Below are positions 4,920-21,925 of a DNA stretch of 24,242 bases, in pieces. Position numbers and translations under genes: made by a program. Under the pieces are notes generated by a model, which worked only from the letters and a program-made list of their open reading frames with translations, was not told the DNA's origin and did no database searches. Position 1 is the first letter of the stretch. The number at the start of each line of letters is the position of its first letter. The DNA is from a virus: positions 1 to 24,242 of the IMG/VR virus record IMGVR_UViG_3300042486_000180. One strand, given 5' to 3'.

Positions 4920-4998
4920 TTTCTAATTTGATTAGAAGTTTTTTTAGTTTAATTACGTTTGCCTTTTTTGGCGTGTATGGTTTTTTTATATTACCCAT
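4903..4998 (-). CDS. Possible 31-aa basic protein
   Basis: A short frame that fills the 66-nt gap between the connector and the 201-residue gene. It begins at an ATG 13 nt before the connector gene ends and stops 17 nt inside the next gene. The peptide (MGNIKKPYTPKKANVIKLKK and an acidic-basic end) is lysine-rich and ends in a predicted helix. The overlaps at both ends match how genes are packed here. Against it, the peptide is very short and AT-rich sequence readily yields Lys codons. Function unknown; it could serve only to couple translation across the gap. Confidence 0.35.
   Translation of the reverse strand: MGNIKKPYTPKKANVIKLKKLLIKLENDKNK
4921..4937 (-). repeat. 7-bp inverted repeat beside a start codon
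   Basis: TTCTAAT and ATTAGAA, separated by three bases, form a perfect AT-rich hairpin one base upstream of the ATG at 4919. In RNA it would lie over the ribosome landing site of the putative fibre gene and inside the possible 31-codon gene. The stem is weak, so a role in limiting translation is only a suggestion. Confidence 0.3.
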
Positions 4999-7291: not shown

Positions 7292-7616
7292 ACATTATAA
7301 AGTCGTTAGTTGTTGTATTACTTATGTATTGACCGTCATTAACCGAGAAAGTGTTAATCGGTTGGTTAGTGCAAAACATACGCTCTTTTAATAGTAGATT
7401 TCCGCTTCCGTCTTTAATTACAACCCAATAAAATTGGTTTTCTTCCGTGGGTAAAATTCCGCTAAAGTTATAAACGTAATCCCCTGCGGTAAACGTACCC
7501 GAAACTACTTGAGTTGTATTCGTGTTTTCGCCCGTTAACTCCAACGTTACAGGAGTTCCGTAGCGCGGAATAAACTTAAAACTTTGCGAAGTGTTGGATT
7601 CGTTAACTACTATCAT
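7284..7616 (-). CDS. Hypothetical beta-rich structural protein, 110 aa
   Basis: 110 residues starting MIVVNESNTSQSFKFIPRYG. It is rich in beta strands and Thr, with no membrane segment. No family is named with confidence, but proteins with this opening occur among structural genes of flavobacterial phages, so a minor virion role is likely. The frame stays open upstream to 7691, but that part covers the terminator hairpin at 7651-7673. The ATG at 7616 has a good ribosome site (TAGGAGTT, about 8 nt ahead), one of the few in the window, so 7616 is chosen. It overlaps the portal start by 8 nt. Confidence 0.7.
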   Translation of the reverse strand: MIVVNESNTSQSFKFIPRYGTPVTLELTGENTNTTQVVSGTFTAGDYVYNFSGILPTEENQFYWVVIKDGSGNLLLKERMFCTNQPINTFSVNDGQYISNTTTNDFIMYE

Positions 7617-7650
7617 ATTATTATAACTCCTAATCCGTGTTTTTGTGCAT

Positions 7651-7673
7651 AAAAAAAGGGGTGTTGCCACCCC
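7651..7673 (-). terminator. Intra-operon terminator after tail-tube gene
   Basis: The minus strand reads GGGGTGGCAACACCCC followed by seven T: a 6-bp stem, GCAA tetraloop and U tract. It is 24 nt after the stop of the tail-tube candidate. No TAnnTTTG promoter lies between it and the next gene, so termination is probably partial. Confidence 0.8.
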
Positions 7674-7696
7674 CTTAACGTTATGAAACAAAGTTC

Positions 7697-8257
7697 TTAA
7701 GAATTAACTACCGTTGGGTTGTTCAATAAAGCAACTAATTGCGCTTCGGTTGCGCAATCCAAGAAATTGGCAGGCGTGGCCTCTTGGCCCGTGAAAGTCA
7801 ATCCGTAACCATTCATATCACCCAAGGCAGTACCATTCGATATAGTACCCGCCGTTACGTCCATTCCTCGGAATAATCCCGCTATAAAGTATTGTCCCGC
7901 GTTTGTCTCTACAATAATGTTAGGTCGTCCGTAAGATAATAATTTAACTTGTTTGTGCGTAATCGCGTCTTGTTTTTTTAATTGAACGCTTAATACTTGC
8001 TCGAAGAACGTAGTTCCGTTTTCACGTGAACTTGTAATAGTTGTTTCGAAGGAGTTTGTACCCTTAAGTTCGAATTTGTAAATTGAACTTAAAGCGGGTA
8101 AAGAAATCGCGTTAATAACGTCTTCTAATCCTGGCGCTGTATCGTAAGTAATGTCGGTTTCGTCGTAAAGTCCGTAATTAAGTACGTAAAGGTTTTTTAA
8201 TCCACCTACTACGTCTTTACAAGGTTCTAATCTACCGTGTGAAATATCGCAACTCAT
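7697..8257 (-). CDS. Putative major tail (tube) protein
   Basis: 186 residues, beta-rich. The order GRLEPCKDVVGGLKNLYVLN, then SFETTITSSRENGTTFFEQ, then VKLLSYGRPNIIVETNAGQY and GMDVTAGTISNGTALGDMNG matches a conserved structural protein of Bacteroidota siphoviruses that I take to be the tail-tube subunit. Tube proteins polymerise around the tape measure to form the tail. Hairpin terminators before and after the gene suggest its expression level is set separately, as expected for a subunit needed in hundreds of copies. It sits between capsid and portal, away from the other tail genes. A capsid decoration protein is the main alternative. Confidence 0.65.
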   Translation of the reverse strand: MSCDISHGRLEPCKDVVGGLKNLYVLNYGLYDETDITYDTAPGLEDVINAISLPALSSIYKFELKGTNSFETTITSSRENGTTFFEQVLSVQLKKQDAITHKQVKLLSYGRPNIIVETNAGQYFIAGLFRGMDVTAGTISNGTALGDMNGYGLTFTGQEATPANFLDCATEAQLVALLNNPTVVNS

Positions 8258-8279
8258 TTTATTTTAGTTTTTTAATGTT

Positions 8280-8311
8280 AAAAAAAAGGGTGGTAGTTTT
8301 ATCCACCACCC
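8280..8311 (-). terminator. Intra-operon terminator after capsid gene
   Basis: The minus strand has GGGTGGT and ACCACCC (7-bp stem, 10-nt loop) followed by eight T. It is 23 nt after the capsid stop and 22 nt before the next start. No consensus promoter follows, so it probably thins transcription or protects the 3' end of capsid mRNA. Confidence 0.8.
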
Positions 8312-8334
8312 CGTTATATTTTTGGTTAGGTTGA

Positions 8335-9267
8335 TTATCCGTAAATTACGATATCTTCAATAACTCCGTACTGAGTACCCGCAGCCATTCGCATAACTAC
8401 ACGAACGTTGTCATCTCCTAAAGTTGCAGATGTATCAATTACTCTAACTTCTTGCGTGTCGCTCAATAAAGAACAACCGAAGTAAAGGTTAGAAGTAGTT
8501 GTAGCCATCATTGAAGAAGAAGGTAAACCATTCGCCATAAACAAAGGAAGACCGTTGAAAGTTACCGCGCCGTTGTTATACCACATTGTACCCTGAGCGT
8601 TAACACCCGAATTAGACGTAGCCAAAACGGAGAATCCACCTAACGCAGCAACGTATGCTTTAATAACGTCTTGAGAAACGTAAATTTTAAGGTCTGGCTT
8701 TCCGTAAAGTGTAGCAGGAATTGCGTTGTAAACTGATTGTAATGCTTGAATAACGTTACCCGCGTTAATTGTACCACCCGCGATATTTTGTGCGATTGGT
8801 AAGTTAGGGTCTGCTTGAGCCGTTGTAAATAACCCGTCAAATTGACCTGAAACGGAAGAAGAACCTTGCCAAATTGAAATCTCGTTAGCGGCTGCAACTT
8901 TTTCAGCGGCATAAGCTATTAAATAATCCGAAAAAGATTTTGGCAAAGTATCGAAAGAAGAATAACCCATTTCGATTGATTGCCAAGTTGAGTGAAACTC
9001 GGACTTACAAAAAGTCATATTCACTTGAAGGTCTTTTACTTGTAATACACGCTCGGTTAAGTCAACGGTTCCAACTGGGGTAAAGTCGCAAGAAGCGTCC
9101 TTCAAAAAGTCAGTTGTCTCAAGTCGTTGAATAACGGCCTTGTATTTTACGTTAGGCATAACGGTTACCCCGCCACCCTCGATAGTTGGTGCGCTTAATA
9201 AAGCCGCAGATACGTACTTACCTGCCCACTGGCCTGCGTACGAAGTAGTAATAGTTGGATTTGGCAT
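8335..9267 (-). CDS. Major capsid protein (HK97 fold)
   Basis: 310 residues, the usual size of a processed or short HK97-fold coat protein. Visible features are a flexible N-terminal arm, a long helix region with FSDYLIAYAAEKVAAANEIS (spine-helix-like), then a region with a GGTINAGNVIQALQSVYNAI segment and a peptide-domain stretch (LKIYVSQDVIKAYVAALGG), ending in beta strands. These are features of Bacteroidota phage coat proteins. Scaffold directly precedes it (16 nt) and the XkdF-type protease is nearby, as expected. The start at 9267 follows an AATT-rich leader. A strong hairpin terminator directly after the gene suggests high-level or separately tuned expression. Confidence 0.85.
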   Translation of the reverse strand: MPNPTITTSYAGQWAGKYVSAALLSAPTIEGGGVTVMPNVKYKAVIQRLETTDFLKDASCDFTPVGTVDLTERVLQVKDLQVNMTFCKSEFHSTWQSIEMGYSSFDTLPKSFSDYLIAYAAEKVAAANEISIWQGSSSVSGQFDGLFTTAQADPNLPIAQNIAGGTINAGNVIQALQSVYNAIPATLYGKPDLKIYVSQDVIKAYVAALGGFSVLATSNSGVNAQGTMWYNNGAVTFNGLPLFMANGLPSSSMMATTTSNLYFGCSLLSDTQEVRVIDTSATLGDDNVRVVMRMAAGTQYGVIEDIVIYG

Positions 9268-9282
9268 TTTTTTTTAATTTAA

Positions 9283-9882
9283 TTATTTATACATTTTGTT
9301 TAATACGGAATCCATAATTCCGCGTGGTGCTTTTTTACCGATTTTAGTAAACTCGGTTTTAGCTTCGTTTTCAGGGTTAAAAGAAATTGGCTCAGGTGTT
9401 TCAAAAAGTTCGGTCTTTTCTTCTACGACTTCAGCAACTTTTGAAAGTTTAGCTAACTCAACTTTTAACGCTTCATTTTCTTCTTTAAGTTTTTCCATTT
9501 CGCTAAAGAATGTTTCTTTAACTATGGATTCGATTGTTTTCTTTGGAGTAGATACGGGCGCGCTCATTTCTTCTTCGGGCATCGGCTCGGTAGTTTCCTC
9601 TTTTACTTCTTCCTCAACTTTTTCTACTTCCTCTTCCTTTTCTTTAACCTCGGAAATAATACCTTCTTCTACAATAACTAAAATACGTCCGTCTTCTAAT
9701 TCGTATTCTCCAACGGGAACGGCTATCTTTTGTTCGTCTTCAGTTACGACAAAAACTTCTTTTCCTGCTTCGAACGAATCCGCTTCGATTTTGGTTACTC
9801 CGTCTCCCATTAACATTTGTTCTAACTTAATTTCGTTAGATAACAACGCTTTGATTTTTTCTAATAGTGTGCTATTTTTCAT
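9283..9882 (-). CDS. Capsid scaffolding protein
   Basis: 199 residues, strongly acidic and rich in Glu and Lys. There is a short N-terminal helix, then a small beta part (about 25-78, with GKEVFVVTEDEQKIAVPVGE), then an extended Glu-rich linker (80-105). A predicted coiled coil follows at about 120-155 (ETFFSEMEKLKEENEALKVE), then a basic C-terminus ending MDSVLNKMYK. Acidic, coiled-coil, directly upstream of the coat gene and with a basic C-terminal tail for coat binding is the classic scaffold pattern. The XkdF-type protease encoded upstream may remove it during maturation. The function follows from composition and position. Confidence 0.75.
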   Translation of the reverse strand: MKNSTLLEKIKALLSNEIKLEQMLMGDGVTKIEADSFEAGKEVFVVTEDEQKIAVPVGEYELEDGRILVIVEEGIISEVKEKEEEVEKVEEEVKEETTEPMPEEEMSAPVSTPKKTIESIVKETFFSEMEKLKEENEALKVELAKLSKVAEVVEEKTELFETPEPISFNPENEAKTEFTKIGKKAPRGIMDSVLNKMYK

Positions 9883-9886
9883 TTTT

Positions 9887-10297
9887 TTATACTTTAAGTG
9901 TTCTTACTGCATTTAACGCGTCGTCAATATCCCCTTGAATATCTTGTGCGTACATAAATAAATCGCTTAGTAATTTATCGGGTTCGCTTCCAACTAAATT
10001 GATTCCAAGTTCTTTGGAAAGTTTATCCATTTGCGCTTTATATTTTTGCGCTGTTGATAATGCTTTTTTTCCGTAATCTTTGTTCAAAGCAACAATTTTT
10101 ACAACTTCTTGTAATGCTGCAACATTTTTCAAAATAGCGTCTTTTCTTTTCTTGTAATCCACCGCGTCTTTTGCGCCATTTTTAGCATAAACTTTTAATT
10201 CATCTAATAACGCTAAATGTACTTGGTGTGTACCTAACTCCGTTTTTGTGGCTTCGATTTCGTAAGCCTTGTTGATTTTGTCTAAAATTGTTTTCAT
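9887..10297 (-). CDS. Hypothetical helical protein, 136 aa, capsid module
   Basis: 136 residues, almost all helix, with many Lys, Ala and Asp and no Cys. Segments such as EATKTELGTHQVHLALLDEL and YGKKALSTAQKYKAQMDKL suggest a helical bundle. The ending AQDIQGDIDDALNAVRTLKV is acidic then basic. No family is recognised. It lies between the small Cys-rich gene and the scaffold gene, four bases before the scaffold start, so a part in capsid assembly is plausible. It could be a second scaffold-like or packaged internal protein. Confidence 0.7.
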   Translation of the reverse strand: MKTILDKINKAYEIEATKTELGTHQVHLALLDELKVYAKNGAKDAVDYKKRKDAILKNVAALQEVVKIVALNKDYGKKALSTAQKYKAQMDKLSKELGINLVGSEPDKLLSDLFMYAQDIQGDIDDALNAVRTLKV

Positions 10298-10336
10298 ATC
10301 TATATAATTAAAGGTTAAAAGTTTTGTTGCATTTTG

Positions 10337-10519
10337 TTACGGCTTCGGATACCATAACGGGGGTGGTGGAACGGGATTCGGTGGCGTTACGTCGCTTCCG
10401 ATTCCTTGGTTTTGTAGTTCGCCCGTACAACACTTTGAGTTATAGGTGTTGTCTTTGCATAAGCACCCACGCTTACCACCACGCGGACTATTTCTTATTT
10501 CTTGTCTTCTTGCTTTCAT
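10337..10519 (-). CDS. Small conserved Cys-rich, Pro-tailed protein, 60 aa
   Basis: 60 residues in three parts: a basic start (MKARRQEIRNSPRGGKR), a compact core with four Cys (CLCKDNTYNSKCCTGELQNQ, then GIG), and a proline-rich end (PPNPVPPPPLWYPKP). The core recalls small proteins remembered from flavobacterial phages. Its Cys pairs could bind a metal or form disulphides in the virion. The start overlaps the stop of the preceding 44-residue gene as ATGA. Function unknown. A minor virion protein is likely because it lies between protease and scaffold. Confidence 0.65.
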   Translation of the reverse strand: MKARRQEIRNSPRGGKRGCLCKDNTYNSKCCTGELQNQGIGSDVTPPNPVPPPPLWYPKP

Positions 10520-10650
10520 CCTTGTCCGCGATTTAGTTTTTTATAATTCTTTGACGTTTTAAGTTGGCTTGTTTTTGATTTTGCGTGTACGTTAGGACGC
10601 TTTACTTTCGGCTTTTGAACGTGGTTAGAAGTTGCAACTTGTTTAGCCAT
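10516..10650 (-). CDS. Small basic protein, 44 aa
   Basis: This gene fills an apparent gap between 10519 and 10643. The peptide starts MAKQVATSNHVQKPKVKRPN and continues with HAKSKTSQLKTSKNYKKLNR, GQG at the end. It is very basic, with no acidic residue. Similar short basic proteins with an HAKTKTSKLK / SKNYKK pattern are remembered from Bacteroidota phages. The start is 8 nt inside the protease gene and the stop overlaps the next ATG as ATGA, so it is tightly coupled to both. A DNA- or capsid-binding role is suggested only by its charge. Confidence 0.7.
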   Translation of the reverse strand: MAKQVATSNHVQKPKVKRPNVHAKSKTSQLKTSKNYKKLNRGQG

Positions 10651-11227
10651 TGATACCTAATAAATTTTTAAGTTCCATTATTACCTCGGTTGCTTCCTGT
10701 TCTTCCGAACTCATTTCGAATTTATCAGCGAAGTAACCTTCTATTGAAAAGCCTTTTACTTTGCCTTCTTTAACATCGTTCCACACTTCTTCGTTGTTTA
10801 CTTTCATCGAAATCATCCAAGTACCTTTAGGTAAACTGAATCCGTAAAGGTTCGACTTGTCCTTTTTTTCGTCTTCGATTATCCACGACTCAACCACGCT
10901 TAAACCCTTTAACTTTTTTTCGTGTTCGTAAGTAGCATTGTTTTGGTTCGAGCGCATTAAAAACAATTCACTTGCTTTTCGAATAGTGTCCTCGGAGAAA
11001 TAAATATAGTATTCTTCGTTCTTTGCGTTGCGTCGGTAAATTTGTTTGTTTGGAACTAAAGCCGCACCCATAAGAATCCTTTTCTCGGTGTCAACTTCTT
11101 TAAGTTCGATTTCGTGTTTATTTAAGGCTACAAAGTTTTCTTCGATTGCAGGGGAATGCACAACGCTTACCGCGTCTATTCCGCTTTGTTCATCGTTTTC
11201 GTCTATGATTAATTCAATGATTCTCAT
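10643..11227 (-). CDS. Prohead maturation protease, XkdF / Peptidase_S78_2 type
   Basis: 194 residues. The order matches the XkdF family: GIDAVSVVHSPAIEENFVAL near the N-terminus, ILMGAALVPNKQIYRRN, then YEHEK (H102, likely catalytic), VVESWIIEDE, GTWMISMKVNNEEVWNDV, and KGFSIEGYF with the likely catalytic Ser161. The family is a herpesvirus-like serine protease that cuts scaffold and coat N-termini during prohead maturation. It lies three small genes upstream of the scaffold and coat genes. The gap from the tape-measure gene is 21 nt. It is the first gene of the head module, which here follows the tail module. Confidence 0.85.
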   Translation of the reverse strand: MRIIELIIDENDEQSGIDAVSVVHSPAIEENFVALNKHEIELKEVDTEKRILMGAALVPNKQIYRRNAKNEEYYIYFSEDTIRKASELFLMRSNQNNATYEHEKKLKGLSVVESWIIEDEKKDKSNLYGFSLPKGTWMISMKVNNEEVWNDVKEGKVKGFSIEGYFADKFEMSSEEQEATEVIMELKNLLGING

Positions 11228-11248
11228 ATCTAAATAATTTAATTTTGG

Positions 11249-13693
11249 TTAAAGTGTTGCGTTTTGTATTCGGTTTCTATCTAAACTTTGCGCAGTTGTT
11301 ACTTGTCCACTAACTACGTATGCTTGAGTAGGTTGTTGTTGAAGTTGCGAAAGTTGGTTAAGTCCGTTATTACCTACGACATTAAAGGAAGGCGCTTGAG
11401 TTCCGCCCGACATACCACCGCCACCACCTTCGGAAGCGCCACCACCACCCGTAGAAGAACCACCACCCTCGAATTTTTGCGAAGCAATTTTAGCAACTCC
11501 TGCCAATCCACTTGCTACGGCTATCCCTGCGGCAATACCACCACGAACGGGCGAAGTTGGGTCGGGAACGGGTGTAAACTGCGAAAAGTAAGCCGAACGC
11601 GCACTTAAAAATGTGTCAATTAATGCGGTGGCTATACTTGCCGCCTTTTTAACTTGGAATGCTTTTTTGGCTTGTTTTTCTCCCTTCTTACCAAACATTT
11701 CCGTAAGGTCGGAAATTAAGGTTAACCCTTGTTTTGCTAAATCCGCGTCGCGTTTAATTGCTTCTTCTTTACGTGCTTTTTCTGCGTCCGTATATTTCTT
11801 ATTGATTTCTTCTACTTCGCGGTTTTTGGCTTCGGTTATTGTTTTTTCTGCGTCTGCGTTACCTTTCGCCATTTTCTGCATTTCCTTATATTTCTCGTCG
11901 AGTAAATAAAGTTCGCGCGCTTGTTCGCTTAAAGTTTCTTGGTAATTTAGGTCTTTTAAGTTTTTAACATCTTTTAAGAAATCTTCTTGTCGTTTCTTTT
12001 CTTCTTCTTTTAATTTTTCGTCCGCTTCTTTGGCTTCCTTTAATTTTTCTGCTTGGTATTTTTCGTCTATTGCTAACAAGTCTTTATTCAAAACGTCTTT
12101 AGCGTTTACAAGTATTTGTCGTTCTTGTTCGGTTAGTTTAGATTCCGCGTTTACCCTTAATGCTTCGAGTTGTTTGTTATATTCTTCGCGACTTATTTTG
12201 CCCGACTCGTATTGTTTGTTTAGTGCTTCTTGTTCATCTGCTATTCGTTCTTTTAAGAAGTTATCTCGGTAGTCGTTGTAAGCGTCTTGACGTAATGCTT
12301 TTTCTTTTTCTATTCCGTCCGCCATTAACGCGAGTTTTTGGTTTTCGGCTTCTTCTTCTAATTTGCTTTGGTCGTCGTATTGTTTCTTTAAGTTGTCTAT
12401 GTAAGCCTTTCGGTTTTGTTCTGCGTTTTGCTTTGCCTTATTCCCTGCTTCTTTGGCTTTGTCGGCCATTTCTTTGTTGTGTTCGGCTTGCATTATTTGA
12501 ATTGAATGGTTTGTGTCTACGTTGTCTTTGTAGGTTTCGTCCATTATTTTTCTAACTCCTTCCGCTCGTTTCTTTAACTCTTTGTACCTATCGGAATCTT
12601 GGTCTTCGGTTGCTAATAGTAAATCCATTTCGGCCTTAATAGCCTTCATTTTGGATTTTTGAACTTCTAAATAAACACGTCCACTTGCTAAATGCGCTTT
12701 GGCCTTAGCTAATTCCATTTCGTAGGTCGCTTTTCCTGAAGCCTTTGCTAAATCTATTTCGCGTTGTGCCTTTGCATCGTTTTGGCTTTGTTCTTTTTTA
12801 ATTGCCTTTGCTCGTTTGTCCGCGGACTTTATAACCGCTTCCGTGTGGTCTTGAGCGTTCTTTTTCATTTTGGCCGTGTTAACATCGTCAACCAACCCCA
12901 TAGCTTCTAGCGCTTTAATAGTTCCGTAAATAATACCAATAAACGGAAACATTATCGAAATTAAAATCTTAACTCCAGTGCCTAATTTTTCAAACTTTTC
13001 ACGCGCCCACATTACCGCTTGAGTTACTTTATCAAAGTTGGCAATAAGTAAACCAACCGCGACAACTATTGCACCGATACCCGTAGCAATTAAAGCAATC
13101 CTAAATAATTTCATCGCGTTGCTCGCTACTCCCGTGGAAACTGCTACTCCCGTTTGAGCCGTGGCTAACCCCGTTGAAGCAACCGCTTGAGCGCCCGTTG
13201 TAACTACGTTCGCTTTATCAACCGCCGCACCCGCTGCCGTTACGGCATTCTTTTTGAATAAGCCTAAAACAACGTCTTTTATTTTTGTACCTAACGTGCT
13301 AAACGCTCTTCCCGCGTCTTCTAATCCTTCCAATCCCTGAGCCAAAGCCATTGCGCTTTGTACCTTTAGCATAGTTTCTTCAACGGCTTCGGATTCAACA
13401 CCAATTAAGCCTAAACCGCCCTGAACCGCACTAAAACCCGAAGCAACGGAAGACATAGCCTTACCCATAGCCAAAAACGTTCCCTCGCCTTTGTATGTTT
13501 TTAATAAGTCGTTAGTATCTTCTATTTGGTCTTTAAGTTCTGCCGCTCGTTTTGCTGCTATTACCGCTTGTTCGGATTGCTCGCCATAAAGCGAAACCAT
13601 TTTTTGTAATTCCGAAACCGCTTCTTTTAACTGCGCTTTTAATGGTTTAACATCGCTTTTTACTTCAAGTTCAATCGTTCGTTTTTCCGCCAT
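11249..13693 (-). CDS. Tail tape measure protein
   Basis: 814 residues. The N-terminal 70 residues form coiled coil. Two hydrophobic segments lie at about 197-220 (FRIALIATGIGAIVVAVGLL) and 241-260. A long charged helical region of Lys, Glu and Ala (about 280-660) has coiled-coil character. A glycine-rich stretch near 745-765 leads to a C-terminus with AYVVSGQVTTAQSLDRNRIQ, a very typical ending of tape measures in Bacteroidota phages. The protein sets tail length inside the tube. At roughly 0.15 nm per residue, a tail near 120 nm is expected. It overlaps the preceding gene by 23 nt and is the last tail gene before the head module. Confidence 0.9.
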   Translation of the reverse strand: MAEKRTIELEVKSDVKPLKAQLKEAVSELQKMVSLYGEQSEQAVIAAKRAAELKDQIEDTNDLLKTYKGEGTFLAMGKAMSSVASGFSAVQGGLGLIGVESEAVEETMLKVQSAMALAQGLEGLEDAGRAFSTLGTKIKDVVLGLFKKNAVTAAGAAVDKANVVTTGAQAVASTGLATAQTGVAVSTGVASNAMKLFRIALIATGIGAIVVAVGLLIANFDKVTQAVMWAREKFEKLGTGVKILISIMFPFIGIIYGTIKALEAMGLVDDVNTAKMKKNAQDHTEAVIKSADKRAKAIKKEQSQNDAKAQREIDLAKASGKATYEMELAKAKAHLASGRVYLEVQKSKMKAIKAEMDLLLATEDQDSDRYKELKKRAEGVRKIMDETYKDNVDTNHSIQIMQAEHNKEMADKAKEAGNKAKQNAEQNRKAYIDNLKKQYDDQSKLEEEAENQKLALMADGIEKEKALRQDAYNDYRDNFLKERIADEQEALNKQYESGKISREEYNKQLEALRVNAESKLTEQERQILVNAKDVLNKDLLAIDEKYQAEKLKEAKEADEKLKEEEKKRQEDFLKDVKNLKDLNYQETLSEQARELYLLDEKYKEMQKMAKGNADAEKTITEAKNREVEEINKKYTDAEKARKEEAIKRDADLAKQGLTLISDLTEMFGKKGEKQAKKAFQVKKAASIATALIDTFLSARSAYFSQFTPVPDPTSPVRGGIAAGIAVASGLAGVAKIASQKFEGGGSSTGGGGASEGGGGGMSGGTQAPSFNVVGNNGLNQLSQLQQQPTQAYVVSGQVTTAQSLDRNRIQNATL

Positions 13694-13850
13694 TTTTTTC
13701 TAGTTTCTTTATTAATAACTCCCGAACCATTTGTTTGTACGCGGGCTTTAATTTGTCGTGTAGTTTGTATTTACCTTTTGCTATCTCAATATATTCGTGT
13801 TCGCCTACGAATTCCGCTACCTGCAAAAGTTGTACTATTTGGTTTATCAT
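13671..13850 (-). CDS. Hypothetical protein between tail tip and tape measure, 59 aa
   Basis: 59 residues, helical, with a basic C-terminus (MINQIVQLLQ at the start, ELLIKKLEKNGGKTND at the end). The frame is open further to 13910, but the ATG at 13850 overlaps the stop of the 792-residue gene as ATGA, the coupling used repeatedly here. It is therefore taken as the start. No family is recognised. Its place directly before the tape measure, with a 23-nt overlap, suggests a small tail-assembly factor. Confidence 0.65.
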   Translation of the reverse strand: MINQIVQLLQVAEFVGEHEYIEIAKGKYKLHDKLKPAYKQMVRELLIKKLEKNGGKTND

Positions 13851-16225
13851 ATTCTTAAAATTACGATTTGACTTGTTTGTGTTGTTCCATCTTGGTATAT
13901 ATATTCGCAATCAACCGTTATAACATCGTTTCTGCCTTCCGTTTCTAATTGTACACCCGCTTCGGTTATTCTTAAATTTCCGTCTTGCGTTGCTCGGTCT
14001 ATATCCCCGATTATATCAGGTAAACTTATTCTTAACGTTTGTGAAGCGCTTATGGAAGTCGGGGTTAAAATTACACCCGTATTTGGCGAAGTAAAGTTAA
14101 CTAGGGTTGCGAAATTTGGTAGCGTAATTGGAACGGTTACGTCTTCTTGCGCTTCGCCAGTTTGAATAACACGAATAGGGAAAACGGGCATAAAGTCGTT
14201 AAGTAATTGGAATGTACTTTCCCCAGTTACTAAATTCGTTTTCATTTCGTTAATTAAATAACGCTTGTCCCTAATTATAAGTCGGTCGTTCAACCTTAAA
14301 TTAGTTAGAATACCAACGGGTAAATTTGTCTTAACGGTTGTTAGTCTATTCTTAGGGTTAAATAAGTTAGTTAAGTACGGAAAATAATACGTAGCGAATA
14401 TGCTTTGTTGAATCGGAGTTAACCAATAAGACGAAGTTTCGGGCGCAAAGTTAGTGGAGTAGTTTATTCCGTTGTCCGTTAAATCTTGTCCGAACATCAT
14501 ATAATCATTTGTTTGATACAAACTAATTCCGTCCGTAAAGTGTACGTGGTCTGCTATATTAACGCTTCCGTATTTGTAAAGTAAACACGGCTTCGGTATG
14601 TAAGGCGCGTAGGCTTGGTCTAACGAATAACCGACTTGTAAACCCGTTGGGGTTCCTGAATCAAAGAATTGATTAAATAGTAAATTTTCGAAAGGAACTT
14701 TAATTGTAAATTCTCCCCCGTCATAAGGGTATTGATATTCCGTGTTTCCGTATTCCTTTAACCCTTGCTCGAAGTAGGCTTTATTCATTAAAGAGTTGGA
14801 TTGCTCAAACGCGAATCCTATTTTTTTGTAAAGTTTTACGCGGTCTATTCCTATTTCGGTTTTATCCGTGAACTCGGTAATATCTATAATTGCGCCCGTA
14901 GCATACCAATCGTCCAAAGGAATAATCGTGTATTCGTTAACCCCACTACCATAACACGTTAAGTTAAATTGCTTTAAGATTCCCGAAATAAAATCTTGTA
15001 CTTTCATTTGTGGCGCTAATTGCGCTAAGTCGGTAAAAGCCGAAAGGTTTAATGTTATGTTTGAATATCGAATGTACTCCGTTGTAGGAATCGGATTCAC
15101 TGAAGTAATGTAAGTAACTTCGTATTGAATTTCGGAATCAAACGTTAACGGAAAATTAGAGCGAATATAAAACTCCCAAACATCGTTTAACCCCTGAACA
15201 TTTGTAACATTAGCAAGTCCGTAAGTAGCCGTTCCAGTTCCTTGGGTTGTAGAAAACAAAGCGCCGTTTCTATACGTATCAATCCAATAAGTTGTGGTAG
15301 GCGAACTTACCGAAGTAACGTCCAACGTTATTACGTGGTTCATCCACGTAGCGCCGTTAAAAAACGGGGTTGTAATTTGGTTTAACGACGTGTCAACGTA
15401 AAGATTAAGCGGGTAAGTTGGAATATAAGAACTTATGATAGTATCTAAGTCAAGTTGTTGAGGTTGTCCACTAAACTCGAAATCGTTTTTATTTTTATAC
15501 CAAATATAAGCTTGCGTAAATTTCGGGTCGGTTAAAAATGCGCCGTTAAAAGTTACTCCGTATTGTAAACCGATAATATCAAAAATTGATTTTACCCGTA
15601 ATGCAGGAAATAACTCGCGGTAATTTATCGCGCCTGCGTTTGTGTGAATATCGTTTGAATTTGAACCTAAAAACGGAACTAACCAATTCGGCACGTTTGC
15701 CACGGGTGCGGTAGATAGGTATTCCCAAATTCGATTAGAAGTAATTAACGGGTAAGAAACGTCGTAATCAACCGTTGTAGTTCTTATTCGATTAAACACT
15801 TCCGTAAACGTGTAATCGTGGTTTACTGTTGAGTAATCTAAGTCGCTTAATAGGTCTTCGCCTACCAAGTCTTTAAGCGTTGTAACATCCCCGTAAAAAG
15901 TAATCGTGTAGGAATTTGGTTGTCCGTTTTTTAGTTGCGACTTTTCCATTTGGATTTTACCCCTACGGAAAAATGTCATATCTATCTCAATGTACCCGTC
16001 TAAGCGTTCTTGATAGTTGATTGAACTATTAACCGCGTTTTCGTAGAAGTACTCCCATACCGCGTTATTACGTGCGCTCGTTGGTATTGTAAACGACTGC
16101 GAAAAGTCAGTAAACGTTTTGGAAATATCTTGTATGTTTTGAATGGTCGAATTTACCTCGATTGTTTCATCGTTGAATAAATCTAACTCCCTTCCCTCAA
16201 CAAAAATTCGAACTTGTCTTTTCAT
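13847..16225 (-). CDS. Large tail structural protein, probable tail-tip protein
   Basis: 792 residues, mostly beta, with no membrane segment or enzyme motif. The N-terminus (RQVRIFVEGRELDLFNDETI, then FTDFSQSFTIPTSARN and WEYFYENAVN) resembles large minor-tail proteins of Bacteroidota phages. The middle contains IDITEFTDKTEIGIDRVKLY and KKIGFAFEQSN, and the last 120 residues look like immunoglobulin-type beta strands. Its ATG shares one base with the stop of the 361-residue gene. A hub or Tal-like tail-tip role is inferred from size and neighbours. It precedes rather than follows the tape measure, which is the reverse of most siphoviruses. Confidence 0.65.
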   Translation of the reverse strand: MKRQVRIFVEGRELDLFNDETIEVNSTIQNIQDISKTFTDFSQSFTIPTSARNNAVWEYFYENAVNSSINYQERLDGYIEIDMTFFRRGKIQMEKSQLKNGQPNSYTITFYGDVTTLKDLVGEDLLSDLDYSTVNHDYTFTEVFNRIRTTTVDYDVSYPLITSNRIWEYLSTAPVANVPNWLVPFLGSNSNDIHTNAGAINYRELFPALRVKSIFDIIGLQYGVTFNGAFLTDPKFTQAYIWYKNKNDFEFSGQPQQLDLDTIISSYIPTYPLNLYVDTSLNQITTPFFNGATWMNHVITLDVTSVSSPTTTYWIDTYRNGALFSTTQGTGTATYGLANVTNVQGLNDVWEFYIRSNFPLTFDSEIQYEVTYITSVNPIPTTEYIRYSNITLNLSAFTDLAQLAPQMKVQDFISGILKQFNLTCYGSGVNEYTIIPLDDWYATGAIIDITEFTDKTEIGIDRVKLYKKIGFAFEQSNSLMNKAYFEQGLKEYGNTEYQYPYDGGEFTIKVPFENLLFNQFFDSGTPTGLQVGYSLDQAYAPYIPKPCLLYKYGSVNIADHVHFTDGISLYQTNDYMMFGQDLTDNGINYSTNFAPETSSYWLTPIQQSIFATYYFPYLTNLFNPKNRLTTVKTNLPVGILTNLRLNDRLIIRDKRYLINEMKTNLVTGESTFQLLNDFMPVFPIRVIQTGEAQEDVTVPITLPNFATLVNFTSPNTGVILTPTSISASQTLRISLPDIIGDIDRATQDGNLRITEAGVQLETEGRNDVITVDCEYIYQDGTTQTSQIVILRI

Positions 16226-17310
16226 TAGATAACGTTATTAATTAAGTCGGTTGAACTTTCGAACTCAAGAACGTAATTTATTTTTTTGTTGTTTATGTTC
16301 TTTTGTTTTTCGAATTCCTTTGTTTTCATTTTAACTGGTTGCCCGTCTAATAAAATTCGTTCGCTTAAAAGTAATTGCTGAATGTTTGAGTTAAAAGATT
16401 CGTCAACCCAACCCGTGTTAGTTCGGTAAGATATTAACCCGTTTGTGTTAAAAGTTTGTCGTTGGTTTAGGTTCGTGTTGTAACTGGCGAACGGACTTGA
16501 GAATTCTTGCATTAAGTTAAACTCGGTTGCCGTTGTCGCTAAACTTTCGTAGGAAGCCTTAAACATAAATTCACGTTGCCACGCGCCGTACTTGTTTATG
16601 AAGTCGATAACTACGGGAGTGTACAAACATTCTTCGATAGGATAAAAAGTAGATTCCCAAAGAATAGCAGCGCCTAATTTAATTCGTAAGATATTACCCG
16701 TTAAATAATACGCGGGTCTTACTCGGTAAAGATTATAAACGTTATCCGAAGCAATCGTATAAGAATGCGTTAAACCCGTTTGTAATTGCTCGTATTCAAC
16801 CGTGTAACCCGTTGGTAAATAAGCCGTAAAAGTTCCTGCGCGTTCAAGTGGATTAACCGAAGGGTTGTTATTCGCGTCCGCCCAATAAAAATAATTTTGT
16901 TCGTTAAGGTGGTAAAATTCCAACTGCATTGGGTTCATTCCTTCCGAATAATATCCGTAACCGTCAAACGCTCGGTAAGTAAACGTATCTAACAAAACGT
17001 ACGTACTTAATGCAAGTTTGTAGCGTTTAATTTGAACCATTGTATATTGTTCTACTCCTAATAAAGCGTTATCCGTTGCGTAATTGTTTACAAAATTATT
17101 GTGGTTAATTGCTTCCAATAAATACGGAGAAACGTTATAAAGCGTTTGTGTATTGTTACTAGCAGGGATTAACTTTTGTAGTGTGTAAGTTGGCGAAGTT
17201 GGCGGGGTTGTTCCATTCGGATAAATGTAAAGTTCGATTTTACTTCCGCTTTGTCCTACTTCGTTAACTTCTATAATAAATGGGGAACGTGCGTAAATGT
17301 TAGTTGCCAT
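16225..17310 (-). CDS. Tail structural protein, Dit-like candidate
   Basis: 361 residues, beta-rich, with many Tyr and Asn. It begins MATNIYARSPFIIEVNEVGQ. A central part with YRAFDGYGYYSEGMNP and FYPIEECLYTPVVIDFINKY is notable, and it ends in a KTKEFEKQKNINNKKINYVL region. No family is certain. Size and the place directly before the 792-residue tail-tip candidate suggest a distal tail (Dit-like) or baseplate component. It overlaps the gp10-like gene by 11 nt and shares one base with the next gene, so the three are probably made in a fixed ratio. Confidence 0.55.
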   Translation of the reverse strand: MATNIYARSPFIIEVNEVGQSGSKIELYIYPNGTTPPTSPTYTLQKLIPASNNTQTLYNVSPYLLEAINHNNFVNNYATDNALLGVEQYTMVQIKRYKLALSTYVLLDTFTYRAFDGYGYYSEGMNPMQLEFYHLNEQNYFYWADANNNPSVNPLERAGTFTAYLPTGYTVEYEQLQTGLTHSYTIASDNVYNLYRVRPAYYLTGNILRIKLGAAILWESTFYPIEECLYTPVVIDFINKYGAWQREFMFKASYESLATTATEFNLMQEFSSPFASYNTNLNQRQTFNTNGLISYRTNTGWVDESFNSNIQQLLLSERILLDGQPVKMKTKEFEKQKNINNKKINYVLEFESSTDLINNVI

Positions 17311-17833
17311 AGTTCTTAAAATTTTCTTTCATTATTGTATCAAAAGTTTCTTGTGCTTCAAGTCCGTAAGCGTCTATTAATTCGTTAGGTAAATTCTTAA
17401 ATGCGTACTTAAACGGCTTAGTAAAAAACATCGAAGGCTTAATACCCTTTTGCCATATCGAACGTGTTATAATCATTGCCGTAGCGTTAGAACTTATGAA
17501 CCTTCCTTTTTTATCTCGGAATTGAATTCGTCTTTGCTTAACCCACTTTTTAATACCTTCCGTTAAACCGCCTTTTTTTCCCGTTCCTGAGCCGAACTTA
17601 AACCCGCTTAAACTTCTTCCGCTTCGTACCCCTCGAACCCCTTGGTCTTGGTAGAATCCGTATTCTTCCATTTCAAAGAAAAAACGAATTGAATTCGGCA
17701 TAACCTTAATTTCAGCGCCTAACGATTGTTTGAGTTTACCCGAAGCGTTTTTACTGCGTAGGTTACTTTTCGCTTTAGCTATTACATAATCGCGAAATTC
17801 CTCGAGTGCTTTAAGTTGTAGTTCCTTGTCCAT
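17300..17833 (-). CDS. HK97 gp10-like tail completion protein
   Basis: 177 residues, basic. Segments EFRDYVIAKAKSNLRSKNAS, then GKLKQSLGAEIKVM, EYGFYQDQGVRG and KGIKPSMFFTKPF follow the layout of the HK97 gp10 / minor tail completion family, which has a GxYxxxGxxG-like strand and a final PxPFF-type motif. The frame is open to a TTG at 17839, but the ATG at 17833 overlaps the preceding stop as TAATG and is taken as start. It lies between the tail-terminator candidate and the tail-tip genes. The protein would act at the head-tail junction or tail end. Assignment is by pattern. Confidence 0.6.
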   Translation of the reverse strand: MDKELQLKALEEFRDYVIAKAKSNLRSKNASGKLKQSLGAEIKVMPNSIRFFFEMEEYGFYQDQGVRGVRSGRSLSGFKFGSGTGKKGGLTEGIKKWVKQRRIQFRDKKGRFISSNATAMIITRSIWQKGIKPSMFFTKPFKYAFKNLPNELIDAYGLEAQETFDTIMKENFKNYGN

Positions 17834-18288
17834 TAACAACGTGTCATATCATTAGGGAAGTCAACGTCGAAAGTCATTGCCCAACCTGCTAAGTAGTTTT
17901 CAAAGCGTTCTATAAAAGGTTCGCAAGTAGGCGCACCATTTAATTGGTAAAGGTTGTCCCATATATTTCCGTGTTTAAGCATTTCAAACGCTCGGTTAAG
18001 AATTGCTAATTGGGTGTTAAGTACGTCTATTTCGTTGTCCGAAGTTTCGAACTTTGTGGTTGGTTCTTCTTTACGCTGGCTTACGTTATCCATTGCCATT
18101 AATGTTACGTTCGCAGTCATTACGTTATCATTAAACGTAACTTGGTTTACCATAATGTGAACCAACGGGAATAAATTTTGTTTACCTAAATCTACGTTAA
18201 AAATTGAACCCTGAGTAATAGTATTAACCAACGGGTCGGAAGTAAAGTGGGTGTTAAGTTCGTTTAGTAAGGAGTAGTAACCGTTCAT
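17833..18288 (-). CDS. Putative tail terminator protein
   Basis: 151 residues of mixed alpha/beta type. Segments are MNGYYSLLNELNTHFTSDPL, FPLVHIMVNQVTFNDNVMTA, VLNTQLAILNRAFEMLK and NYLAGWAMTFDVDFPNDM. Proteins with this order are common in Bacteroidota phages beside tail genes. The size and the strand-helix-strand pattern fit tail terminator proteins, which cap the tube. Its ATG overlaps the stop of the frameshifted chaperone extension by four bases, and its stop overlaps the next start as TAATG. Function is inferred from fold impression and neighbours only. Confidence 0.55.
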   Translation of the reverse strand: MNGYYSLLNELNTHFTSDPLVNTITQGSIFNVDLGKQNLFPLVHIMVNQVTFNDNVMTANVTLMAMDNVSQRKEEPTTKFETSDNEIDVLNTQLAILNRAFEMLKHGNIWDNLYQLNGAPTCEPFIERFENYLAGWAMTFDVDFPNDMTRC

Positions 18289-18560
18289 TTGTTATGCTTT
18301 TTAATTTCCATTAATTCAATTTCGTTTTTTTCGGCTTCGAATGTAAGATAGGTAAGACACTTATATAATCCGTATTTAGTAACTTCGTCGTATCTTGTAA
18401 CATCTCCCTTAGCGAGTCCATAGATTGAACTATACCAACCCCACTTTTTACCGAATTGAGTTCTTGCGCTAAAGTCGCTTGTTCGGTCGCGTTCATCTTC
18501 TTCAACTCCGTCTCTAAATAGTTTAGGGTAGCGCTTAATAACTCGCTTCCTAAAGTCCAA
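18285..18560 (-). CDS. Tail assembly chaperone extension, -1 frame (GT product)
   Basis: A 91-codon frame lying -1 to the upstream chaperone. It has no ATG near its beginning: the first usable codon is the TTG directly after the T-run at 18560, so the product LDFRKRVIKRYPKLF... should be made by a -1 frameshift from the chaperone, giving a fusion of about 254 residues (163 + 91). The segment KKWGWYSSIYGLAKGDVTRY, then YKCLTYLTFEAEKNE, is typical of T domains of Bacteroidota phages. The T part is thought to bind tail-tube subunits and help load them on the tape measure. It overlaps the next ATG by four bases, which supports that it is translated. Confidence 0.8.
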   Translation of the reverse strand: MDFRKRVIKRYPKLFRDGVEEDERDRTSDFSARTQFGKKWGWYSSIYGLAKGDVTRYDEVTKYGLYKCLTYLTFEAEKNEIELMEIKKHNK

Positions 18561-19048
18561 AAAAAAACCGAAGCGGATATAGCTACGTCCATAGGCGCGA
18601 ACTTCATTAACTCGCTGTATTCCCCTGCGCCAGTGTATTCTATTATTTCGTATTTTTCTCCGTTTTTAATTTTAATTGGCCTATACATTACCGCCATAGC
18701 TTTGTGGAAATCGTCCCACTTCGCTAAGTAGTTATCTAAGTCCACGTATTCGCCAAAACTTATATTTTCAAGGTCGGTAATAAATCCAAACTCAAGGTCT
18801 TTAATTTTGAAGGTAGGCTTAAACTTTGGCTTTTCCGCGAATATATTACGAAAGTGAACAATTAAGTCGTTAACGCTTGTTAGTTTCATTTTAACAACGT
18901 CCTTTAGTTCTATACCGCAAAATATCTCAATCATTTTCTGCGCGATAAATTCCTCGTCGTTGGAAGATTGCTGCAACTTCAGGAACTTTTGATAGTTCAC
19001 TAAAGGAATTTCGCTAATTGAACTTGGGACGGTTATTTCTAACTTCAT
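18311..19048 (-). CDS. Tail assembly chaperone, zero-frame (G product)
   Basis: 245 residues, cytoplasmic. The part before the slip site has PSSISEIPLVNYQKFLKL, then FCGIELKDVVKMKLTSVNDL and FEYVDLDNY-like segments (SFGEYVDLDNYLAK, AMAVMYRPI), typical of chaperones that load tail-tube proteins on the tape measure. A slippery run at residues 161-163 sends some ribosomes to the -1 frame. Unlike lambda G, which ends soon after the site, the zero frame stays open for another 80 residues, so about 250 nt code in two frames. The extra C-terminus (ELLSATLNYLETELKKMNA...) is helical and looks like a genuine protein. It begins 10 nt after the preceding gene. Confidence 0.8.
   Translation of the reverse strand: MKLEITVPSSISEIPLVNYQKFLKLQQSSNDEEFIAQKMIEIFCGIELKDVVKMKLTSVNDLIVHFRNIFAEKPKFKPTFKIKDLEFGFITDLENISFGEYVDLDNYLAKWDDFHKAMAVMYRPIKIKNGEKYEIIEYTGAGEYSELMKFAPMDVAISASVFFWTLGSELLSATLNYLETELKKMNATEQATLAQELNSVKSGVGIVQSMDSLREMLQDTTKLLNTDYISVLPILHSKPKKTKLN
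18560..18566 (-). promoter_or_regulatory. Slippery heptamer T TTT TTT for -1 frameshift
   Basis: On the minus strand a run of nine T lies in GTT TTT TTT TGG (Val161-Phe-Phe-Trp164 of the chaperone). In the zero frame it contains the X XXY YYZ form T_TTT_TTT. A slip of one base back enters the TTG GAC TTT frame at the exact position where the 91-codon extension begins. Confidence 0.8.
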
Positions 19049-19058
19049 ATTTATTAAA

Positions 19059-19241
19059 CTATTTATTCGTGTTTTTGTAATTCATAACGTGTTCGTGCGC
19101 CTTAATTAGCATATCAAAGTGAGCGGTAAAACGTGCCATATTATTAAACACTATTCGAACGCGTTTGCCAGTGCGTTCCTGAATGTAAGATTCCACACGG
19201 GTAATCATTACTTGCATATCGTTAGTTTTATCGTATTGCAT
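19059..19241 (-). CDS. Hypothetical protein, 60 aa, after terminase
   Basis: 60 residues, basic, helix-strand-helix. It opens MQYDKTNDMQVMITRVESYI and has KRVRIVFNNMARFTAHFDML. No family is recognised. It overlaps the end of the large terminase gene by 14 nt and precedes the chaperone gene by 10 nt. A second in-frame Met at residue 9 is possible. The packing and the codon composition support a real gene. It may assist packaging or tail assembly. Confidence 0.65.
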   Translation of the reverse strand: MQYDKTNDMQVMITRVESYIQERTGKRVRIVFNNMARFTAHFDMLIKAHEHVMNYKNTNK

Positions 19242-20388
19242 AGCTTCCGTATGTTGCGCCTATTCCCAAAGTTTCCATTTCGTGGTAACGTAGCGCGTCT
19301 ATTGCGTGGTTATTAAAGTCGATAGGCTTGTTTAATCTTCTTCCCGTCTTATCTGTGTCCCAAATATACGAACGAAGTTCTTTGATTAAATCCACGCTTT
19401 GATTAGTTACTAAATAGTCTTGGCGCTGCATTACGTCTATTCCGTAGTTAATTGAATCCTTACCCTTGGTTACTCCTTTAATCGTTATTCCTAATCGTCT
19501 TATTTCTTCAATACTTTTAGGTTCGGAAGAATCCGCATATACTATTACGTTTTTTGGTAGGCGCTTCGCTATTTCACTATTTACTAATCCATTTTGGTAA
19601 ACAATTTGGTTTACTATTCGTTGGTTATTGTATGCGTAAATTTCTATAACTGCGGTCGGGTCGTTCGTATATCCGAAGTCAAGTCCTATACCTAATAACC
19701 TTGCTTCTTTTGGTATTGTGTCAATAGTTTTCCAATTACTAAAAACAACCCCTTCTAACATTCCGAGTTGTCCCTCGCCATAAACCTTCCACCAGTTAGC
19801 CCAATAACTTGAGGTCTTTGCTTTGTCTCGGTTCTTTTCGATTTGTTCTACTATACTTTGGTCTAACGCTTCGTTATCTTTATAGGTAAGAATTAAGAAG
19901 TCCGAGTCGGGTTCGTCTTTTAGTTCGGTATGCACCCAAAATTCGTTAGCAGGGTTGAAATCTAAATAAACTTCCTTTCGTGTTCGTATAGCCAACTCGT
20001 TATAAGCGTCAAACGTTACGTTATTACATTCGTTTATGTAAAGTATATCCCTTCGCGCTCCACGAAGTTTACTCGAATCGTCTGCGGAAAAGAATTCGAT
20101 AACGCTTCCATTTGCGAACTCATAACGGAGTAGCGACTTGTTAAACCTATCCTCAAAGAATCTGCCCGTCCATTTCATTATCTTTAAGAAGTCCTTTAAC
20201 GCGCCACGTCTTAAATGGGGTATAGTTTCCGCAACTACGCTTATTTCAATTCCGTGTATTAATAGCGCCTTGTTAATTAGCACCGCTAAAATTGAATAAG
20301 TTTTAGAAGCCGAAGTACCGCCCTGAATAATCTTAACGCGGTTTTTTAGTCCGAGTACCTTATTCGTTGCTGTTGTCCTCTTGAACAT
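19228..20388 (-). CDS. terL: Terminase large subunit
   Basis: 386 residues. The ATPase part shows Walker A GGTSASKT (residues 23-30) and Walker B ILYINE (115-120). The nuclease part has DFGYTNDP with D237, YADSSEP with D286 and a final HAIDAL with D364, the three acidic residues of the RNase H-like fold. The protein pumps DNA into proheads and cuts the concatemer. The frame is open to 20445, but the start at 20388 leaves a smaller overlap (29 nt) with the small subunit and begins just before the conserved domain. The small subunit lies directly upstream and portal is far away, a less common arrangement. Confidence 0.9.
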   Translation of the reverse strand: MFKRTTATNKVLGLKNRVKIIQGGTSASKTYSILAVLINKALLIHGIEISVVAETIPHLRRGALKDFLKIMKWTGRFFEDRFNKSLLRYEFANGSVIEFFSADDSSKLRGARRDILYINECNNVTFDAYNELAIRTRKEVYLDFNPANEFWVHTELKDEPDSDFLILTYKDNEALDQSIVEQIEKNRDKAKTSSYWANWWKVYGEGQLGMLEGVVFSNWKTIDTIPKEARLLGIGLDFGYTNDPTAVIEIYAYNNQRIVNQIVYQNGLVNSEIAKRLPKNVIVYADSSEPKSIEEIRRLGITIKGVTKGKDSINYGIDVMQRQDYLVTNQSVDLIKELRSYIWDTDKTGRRLNKPIDFNNHAIDALRYHEMETLGIGATYGSYAIR

Positions 20389-20689
20389 CGGGGAATAAAG
20401 GAATTTCGATATTTGTTTGTTCGATTTGCTGAACGGGTGCGCCATAACCGCTATCCATTAATGCTTTGTATGCGTTTACGTCTCCTTCACGCGCTTTTTT
20501 AATTAGCGCCAAGGTCATTAAGTCTTCTTGCGACATCGTTTCGTTCTCGCCTGTAATTGGATTCTTTAATGACTGATTAACTTCTAACCAACGTCTCGCG
20601 ATTGTACTTCGGTTCTTACTCCCCTTTGGTCTTCCTGCGGGGTTTCCGCTTTCGCCTTTCTTAAATGGTATTAAATCTTCTTTGCTCAT
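20360..20689 (-). CDS. terS: Terminase small subunit
   Basis: 109 residues. The N-terminus PFKKGESGNPAGRPKGSKNR is the DUF5681-type segment found on terminase small subunits and related DNA-binding proteins. A helical part follows (SQEDLMTLALIKKAREGDVN, AYKALMDSGYG) with an acidic end. The small subunit recognises the packaging site and recruits the large subunit. It lies directly before the large terminase gene and 15 nt after the methylase. The DNA-binding part would be a helix-turn-helix, not fully visible in so short a protein. Confidence 0.8.
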   Translation of the reverse strand: MSKEDLIPFKKGESGNPAGRPKGSKNRSTIARRWLEVNQSLKNPITGENETMSQEDLMTLALIKKAREGDVNAYKALMDSGYGAPVQQIEQTNIEIPLFPDVQEDNSNE

Positions 20690-20704: not shown

Positions 20705-21925
20705 TTATTTTAATTCAACTCCATTACGCTTAATAACTAAACTTGGGTCAAGTTTTTTCATTCGGTCTATAATAACTTGGCAATACTTCGGGTCTAATTC
20801 CATTCCGTAACATTTGCGTTTAAGTTGGTGTGCTGCAACCATTGTTGAACCTGAACCCAAGAATAAATCCAATACCCTCATACCTTCTTTACTTGAATTG
20901 TTTAACGCATTTTCAATTAATGGAATTGGCTTCATAGTTGGGTGTAAATCATTTTTTAATGTTCTTTGAAACTGCCAAATATCTTCTTGTTTATATCGTT
21001 CGCCATAAAAATTACCTCCTTTTTGTCCATAAATTATTGGTTCATACCTGCTTTTATAATCCATATTTGAAAGTGCTGCTTGATTTTTCATCCATATAAT
21101 GATATTTTTCCATTTATGGCCTGAATCAATTAAACTATTTAATAATAAATGTAATTCCGAATAAGCAAAACATATATACCAAGCTCCTTTATTAAATAAA
21201 AATAAATTGCTTAAAACTTCAGCCATAAAATTTTTGAAATCATCTTCACTTAATGAATCGTTTTCTATTTCATCGTGTTTAGTATTTGCGCCTTTATGTC
21301 CGTGAATAACAACACCATCTTTTGTTGTGTTACTTATTCTTTGTCCTTGAAAAGAAACTCTATACGGTGGGTCGGTAAATACCATATCCGCCTTTTGTCC
21401 GTTCATTAGCTTTGCCACTTGGTCGCTATCCGTACTATCCCCACAAAGTAAACGGTGTTCTCCTATTTCGAATAAGTCTCCTAATACTATGTCCGTGTTT
21501 ATTTCGTTAGGTATTTCGTAGTTGTCTTCTTCGGCTTCGAGTTCTTCCTGAACGATTAAATCAACGGGTAAATCTAAACCCCATTCTTCGAGTTTATCTA
21601 CTTCCCATTCGTTTGCTAAAGTATCCCAATCCCACTCTCCAAAACCTACGTTATCCTTTACAATAAATTCGTCTTTTTGTTCGTTTGTAAGGTCTTTTGC
21701 TCTAACTATCGAAACTTCGGTGTATCCTGCTTCTTTAAGTGCCTTAAAACGCATATTTCCGCCCAAAATAATGTTATTCTCATCTACTACTATCGGACGG
21801 AGTTCTAACATTTGCGGAAAATCCTTAATTGATTTGACTAATTTCTTAAACTTTTCGTCTTTAATTAACCTCGGATTCTTCGGGTTCGGTTTAATTTCCG
21901 ATATCTTAACCTTCAATACTTCCAT
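20705..21925 (-). CDS. DNA methyltransferase with N-terminal ParB-like domain
   Basis: 406 residues, two domains. Residues 1-100 form a ParB/Srx-like domain (SEIKPNPKNPRLIKD, then ILGGNMRFKALKEAGY). Residues 145-395 form an N6-adenine or N4-cytosine methylase: CGDST, DPPY at 185-188 (catalytic motif IV), HPTMKP at 328-333, and FLGSGS at 355-360 (AdoMet-binding motif I). Motif IV before motif I marks the beta class. The target sequence is not known. Fusions of this kind are common in phages and likely protect phage DNA from host restriction or mark it for packaging. It stands next to the terminase genes. Residues about 229-308 are coded by unusually AT-rich, CpG-poor DNA. Confidence 0.9.
   Translation of the reverse strand: MEVLKVKISEIKPNPKNPRLIKDEKFKKLVKSIKDFPQMLELRPIVVDENNIILGGNMRFKALKEAGYTEVSIVRAKDLTNEQKDEFIVKDNVGFGEWDWDTLANEWEVDKLEEWGLDLPVDLIVQEELEAEEDNYEIPNEINTDIVLGDLFEIGEHRLLCGDSTDSDQVAKLMNGQKADMVFTDPPYRVSFQGQRISNTTKDGVVIHGHKGANTKHDEIENDSLSEDDFKNFMAEVLSNLFLFNKGAWYICFAYSELHLLLNSLIDSGHKWKNIIIWMKNQAALSNMDYKSRYEPIIYGQKGGNFYGERYKQEDIWQFQRTLKNDLHPTMKPIPLIENALNNSSKEGMRVLDLFLGSGSTMVAAHQLKRKCYGMELDPKYCQVIIDRMKKLDPSLVIKRNGVELK

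Follow-up and report, generated by a model that had tools for sequence, protein, structure and literature searches.

Two-frame coding beyond a conserved T9-T10 run in a tail-chaperone-like phage gene, with probable polymerase slippage

Layout of the slip gene

The DNA analysed here, called the window throughout, is a viral contig of 24,242 bases. One of its genes, referred to below as the slip gene, contains a run of nine T's beyond which two reading frames stay open, and every feature of this gene lies on the minus strand. The features used in the analysis, with the evidence for each, are as follows:

18311..19048, minus: zero-frame open reading frame (ORF), 245 aa, the putative unslipped (G-like) product; relatives, and a match to phrog_32199 (unknown function) at 8.8e-10
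18560..19048, minus: shared N-terminal domain, residues 1-163; two alignments, and a predicted fold with pLDDT mostly 67-88
18559..18567, minus: T9 slip run, T_TTT_TTT in the zero frame; sequence, and T9 or T10 in 269/269 distinct relatives
18285..18560, minus: -1 frame after the slip, a putative T-like domain of 91 residues, stop included; sequence, and dN/dS of 0.07-0.20 in the overlap
18311..18559, minus: stretch open in both frames, zero-frame tail W164-N245 plus stop; selection tests and codon resampling
18386..18559, minus: part of the overlap where the zero frame shows selection, approximately codons 2-58 in the -1 frame; zero-frame dN/dS
18311..18385, minus: clade-specific end of the zero-frame tail; zero-frame dN/dS not significant
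18550..18552, minus: TAG in the third (+1) frame, two codons past the run; sequence
18285..18288, minus: ATGA in which the -1 stop and the start codon of the next gene overlap; sequence
17833..18288, minus: next gene, 151 aa, probable tail completion or terminator protein; match to phrog_30964 (unknown function)
11249..13693, minus: tail length tape measure protein, the expected partner; PHROG tape measure families, best match 7e-13

In context the run reads GG-T9-GG, and the codons across it are GTT TTT TTT TGG, that is, the last base of codon 161 followed by F162 and F163. The initial annotation had placed T_TTT_TTT in the zero frame at residues 161-163, which is where it lies, and had described the -1 frame as becoming usable exactly at the next codon. 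That codon is indeed TTG (18560-18558), but the -1 frame is also open for 35 codons upstream of the run, and no stop therefore marks the slip site. Downstream, the -1 frame runs for 91 codons and ends in a TGA that overlaps the ATG of the next gene, giving the four-base overlap already reported; the same offset between the -1 stop and the next gene is found in 219 of 298 relatives checked. The -1 frame was also said to lack an ATG, and its first 50 codons contain none in 281 of 288 relatives. With almost no start codon in this frame, its product is most likely a fusion. The zero frame continues for 82 codons past the run to a stop at 18311-18313, so that the overlap measures 249 nt, as the earlier figure of about 80 further residues implied.

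Among close relatives, 155 of 156 have the third frame closed 2 codons past the slip, as do 63/63 of the next set, and in a further set of relatives it closes 0-4 codons past the slip; this stop is also dictated by the codons of the other two frames. In the window, the TAG would terminate the products of a one-base deletion, and early closure of this frame means more generally that such products would simply end.

The slip gene sits between a large terminase-like ORF (19228-20445), which immediately precedes it, and tail genes downstream. At the position equivalent to the 151-aa next gene, Nonlabens phage P12024S has a protein starting MNGYY; that the 151-aa protein is probably a tail completion or terminator protein is a role that we infer. 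The tape measure gene is on the same strand and in the same tail block, about 5 kb and several genes away from the slip gene. P12024S keeps the terminase-first gene order, and the neighbours are conserved there. The tape measure gene downstream and these conserved neighbours point to a tail role for the slip gene.

Other features of the window can be listed for completeness. Across 4986-20689 (minus) the gene order is unusual: terminase, slip gene, tail genes, tape measure, S78-like protease, then capsid-like and portal-like ORFs. The tail block precedes the head block, and the capsid-like and portal-like ORFs are named by reading only. A second nine-base A/T run, a T9 on the plus strand and an A9 on the coding strand, is found at 9267-9275, at the start of the capsid-like ORF (8335-9267, minus), and is probably part of an A-rich leader. 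At 20705-21925 (minus) an ORF of 406 aa appears, by eye, to join a ParB-type N-terminus to a DNA methyltransferase.

Relatives and growth of the zero-frame tail

Relatives were collected from IMG/VR in scans that used the zero-frame protein and the -1 domain as queries, as well as profiles: more distant ones of the N-terminal domain and a divergent one of the -1 domain. The scans yielded several hundred loci, 269 of them distinct after removal of duplicates around the run. The layout of the slip gene is conserved in these 269 distinct loci, some of which are about 23% identical, and all three sets of relatives share the in-frame heptamer and a conserved -1 domain. The only cultured relatives found are the Nonlabens phages P12024S and P12024L (about 23% identity), and a profile search of cellular genomes returned no relative of the slip gene. 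The family consists of aquatic phages, probably with flavobacterial hosts, and from P12024S the host of the window's phage would also be flavobacterial.

The length of the zero-frame tail differs among lineages. It is 16-27 codons in the P12024 lineage, no longer than expected by chance. Most marine relatives have about 52-69 codons, and the window's clade, a supported branch of the N-terminal tree, mostly has about 70-101. If the root falls between P12024 and all others, where midpoint rooting puts it, parsimony favours a stepwise lengthening of the unslipped frame over an older -1 domain. For a comparison of short and long tails past the shorter stop, the window's clade offers a single short-tail pair.

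The initial annotation had named the loss of one frame by stop codons in related phages as evidence against two functional ends. Apart from the short zero-frame tail of the P12024 lineage, such losses are isolated. One locus (L265, gene start near 2501) has a -1-frame stop 12 codons past the slip with both frames otherwise intact, which is either a sequencing error or a true loss of the fusion. In another (L528) the zero-frame tail is just 6 codons long, against about 56 in its relatives.

Run length and the nature of the slip

The length of the run is tightly constrained. Among the 269 distinct loci it is T9 in 226 and T10 in 43; runs of 7, 8 or 11 never occur. A scan anchored on the -1 domain finds T9 or T10 in 75 of 75 distinct loci, some contigs being common to both sets. 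The run is kept at this length in five codon registers (NTT TTT TTT T, TTT TTT TTT T, NTT TTT TTT TTN, AGT TTT TTT TTT and TTT TTT TTT), and the register states need 14 changes on the tree. When codon columns were shuffled in 79 lineages, 9-10 T's were retained in a mean of 49.5 (maximum 59), as against 79 observed, a comparison that ignores shared descent and is to be read alongside the 14 register changes.

Since T_TTT_TTT suffices for a tandem ribosomal slip, and a run of 9-10 T's holds just one in-frame heptamer, the extra T's need another reason. In a large share of bacterial genomes, avoidance of slippage-prone runs sets in at nine A's or T's (PMC1088944), and the RNA polymerase of Escherichia coli slips on T runs from seven up, more so with increasing length (PMC6260861). 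From the strict 9-10 T's in changing registers, together with the lack of a conserved RNA structure (below), transcriptional slippage is favoured: we infer that slippage occurs at the run and that it is mainly transcriptional.

The principal alternative is programmed -1 ribosomal frameshifting at T_TTT_TTT, which would make the same two products, with the 9-10 T's incidental or boosting the ribosomal slip. The heptamer is in frame in every relative, phage P2 carries T_TTT_TTG at a comparable place, and this is the known mode for tail chaperones (PMC5009743). However, seven T's would be enough for it, and yet runs of 7 and 8 are absent from the 269 loci; nor does any interrupted form, for example T_TTT_TTC or T_TTT_TTG, ever appear. 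Moreover, there is no conserved stimulatory structure downstream of the run (z-score -0.80; consensus -0.74 kcal/mol, with no compensatory pairs). Some known ribosomal frameshift sites do function with no downstream stimulatory structure. We regard ribosomal frameshifting as possible, though doubtful, and from the sequence rate transcriptional slippage as about twice as likely. Three points count the other way: the E. coli polymerase slips at T7-T8, so that a floor at nine is not demanded in every host; the run also holds a legal ribosomal heptamer; and selection may act on the hydrophobic residues encoded around the run rather than on the run itself. Of the G/GT frameshift originally proposed, the layout and the slip-dependent fusion are supported, while the ribosomal part is doubtful, a slip of the polymerase being a better fit to the run length.

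Avoidance of long A/T runs in the other genes was considered as independent proof of transcriptional slippage but is not relied on. Raw counts suggested a depletion of runs of at least nine; cluster weighting gives values of 0.86 (0-1.66) for T and 0.54 (0.14-1.08) for A, neither of them significant.

The run could also act as a genetic switch, with replication slippage between T9 and T10 generating phage subpopulations that encode either product (phase variation). One contig (L232, 478-1239; L444 is the same contig) has a T10 inside a T9 clade, which makes the fused protein a direct genomic product. This in-frame fusion may be real or a sequencing error, and it is the sole such case among the 269 distinct loci; a search for in-frame fusions with the fused protein of L232 and with the T domain found only L232 itself. 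At the other T10 loci the flanks are compensated and the G-like frame stays genomic. Phase variation is scarcely plausible as the explanation of the locus.

Selection on both frames

For dual coding, the question is whether each of the two frames is constrained beyond what the other imposes. The test set for the window's clade comprised 104 sequences below 95% identity, in which the third positions of the -1 frame are the second positions of the zero frame. Variation at -1-frame third positions is 0.324 in the overlap, compared with 0.516 at ordinary third positions upstream. Amino-acid-matched synonymous diversity is 0.28-0.68 of expectation per 15-codon bin of the overlap. The synonymous constraint on the -1 frame spans the whole overlap and is strongest in the first 30 codons past the run.

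Substitution classes were estimated from 46 independent pairs, and the values are approximate pairwise estimates. The rate of changes that are silent in the -1 frame but alter the zero frame (dSN) is 0.199 in the overlap versus 0.530 upstream in the same relative frame. Zero-frame dN/dS in the overlap is 0.46 (0.33-0.64) or 0.16 (0.07-0.47), depending on the estimator, against control values of 0.78 and 0.69 upstream and 1.2-1.3 in the third frame. The -1 frame itself has a dN/dS of 0.07-0.20 in the overlap. Divided along its length, the zero frame of the window's clade gives 0.44 (0.29-0.69) over columns 2-58 and 0.63 (0.28-1.56) over the last ~25 codons, where selection is not significant.

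The test was repeated in relatives that provide an internal control, namely those with a zero-frame tail of 50-63 codons, in which the -1 frame is alone past the zero-frame stop. Here dSN rises from 0.281 (0.22-0.35) within the overlap to 0.625 (0.46-0.83) past the stop. In addition, when the -1 protein of the window was resampled with synonymous codons, the zero frame stayed open this far in 0 of 4000 trials; the same resampling across 51 lineages gave a median P of 0.004.

Both frames are therefore under purifying selection over approximately the first 57 codons of the overlap, in two clades, and about 170-250 nt code twice. The claim of two functional C-termini over some 250 nt holds for this first part and is not borne out at a significant level for the last ~25 codons.

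Two other explanations of these patterns were weighed. If the -1 domain alone were functional, the zero frame could be open by chance or as a by-product of the -1 protein sequence. The chance-length tail of the P12024 lineage and the last ~25 codons of the window's tail would suit such an account, but across the overlap the synonymous positions of the -1 frame are constrained and past the zero-frame stop they are released, and the codon resampling and dN/dS results argue against it as well; we consider it very unlikely. Alternatively, the synonymous constraint could reflect an RNA structure or regulatory element rather than a second protein, and its peak in the first 30 codons past the run is of the kind such an element could produce. 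No stable or covarying structure is found, though, the constraint stops where the zero frame stops, and the zero frame stays open, so that an RNA element has only a very slim chance of being the explanation.

Proposed products and function

The reading that we prefer, and hold to be reasonably probable, is that two G/GT-like products arise by transcriptional slippage at the T9 run and that both tails are selected. One gene would give two tail-assembly proteins with residues 1-163 in common and different C-termini. Unslipped mRNA would be translated into the 245-aa protein with a helical zero-frame tail. In some of the mRNA, RNA polymerase would insert one extra U at the run, and this mRNA would encode the shared part fused to the 91-residue T-like domain of the -1 frame. 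By analogy with phage lambda (PMC5009743), coating of the tape measure protein would fall to the G-like form and recruitment of the tail tube protein to the GT-like form.

Structure prediction gives fair confidence for the N-terminal domain, low-confidence helices for the zero-frame tail and a small, helical -1 domain. Pfam and PDB sequence searches with both domains returned nothing meaningful, and their PHROG matches are mostly of unknown function. Comparison of the predicted folds found no PDB chain at Z of 8 or more, and hhalign detected no homology to lambda G or T, each of which served as a single-sequence template. The tail-chaperone identity originally assigned would thus be one of function, by analogy, rather than of membership in the lambda G/T family. 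Several uncharacterised viral proteins, among them the BFVD entries A0A516L5A8, A0A6J5N0W0 and A0A6J7WDG4, match models of both domains, which suggests that in some phages the N-terminal and -1 domains form one in-frame protein.

Protein R9VW65 of Flavobacterium phage 6H was examined as a possible member and rejected, having a weak fold match, a different junction and no T9 run. Its locus (L363, 10352-10927, minus) is a weak fold relative of the N-terminal domain, with the end motif seemingly in another frame near TGTTTTTTC; either another kind of frameshift or an error in the sequence could account for this.

Extended to the family, which is old, large and probably flavobacterial, the proposal is that a chaperone pair is made by polymerase slippage at T9-T10 and that the zero frame was extended stepwise to give 52-101 mostly selected dual codons. 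We give this broader statement somewhat better than an even chance.

Comparison with known systems

Conserved ribosomal recoding in phages has its textbook example in tail-chaperone frameshifting. In the lambda G/GT and P2 E/E+E' pairs, as in the window, both proteins begin with the same N-terminal part, the slip site is close to where the first frame ends, the -1 frame has no start of its own and the genes lie in the tail block. They differ in the length of the zero frame past the slip, which is 5 codons in lambda and 6 in P2; the window has 82 codons and most relatives have 52-101, selected over at least about 57. The strict T9-T10 run of the window's family likewise sets it apart from lambda and P2.

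Transcriptional slippage in bacteria (Thermus dnaX, Shigella mxiE and spa13, IS elements) uses a comparable homopolymer of about nine A's or T's, and the heterogeneous mRNA similarly leads to alternative C-termini (PMC1088944, PMC5009743). Unlike in those cases, the alternative ends in the window overlap over a long dual-coded stretch. Potyvirus P3N-PIPO combines polymerase slippage with a shared N-terminus and an alternative C-terminus that overlaps a coding frame (PMC5009743), but in an RNA virus, with a viral RNA polymerase and unrelated proteins.

The counterparts in a cultured phage are genes 38 and 39 of Nonlabens phage P12024S (phrog_32199), which encode a homologous N-terminal protein and -1 domain with a T9 in the same register. 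In contrast to the window, the zero-frame tail of P12024S has 25 codons. For annotation, it matters that the sole cultured relatives found record the two frames as separate, unrelated hypothetical genes.

In the open-access literature, to which the search was confined, we found neither slippage-made tail chaperones nor such long dual coding in one. If the slip has moved to transcription, selection would preserve the two products rather than the mechanism. Overprinting can also be traced in the long dual-coded tail: it is short in one lineage but extended in others, and both frames can be measured. Relative to known G/GT pairs, what is new is the conserved, selected dual-coded end, together with a constraint on run length that suggests RNA polymerase as the agent of the slip.
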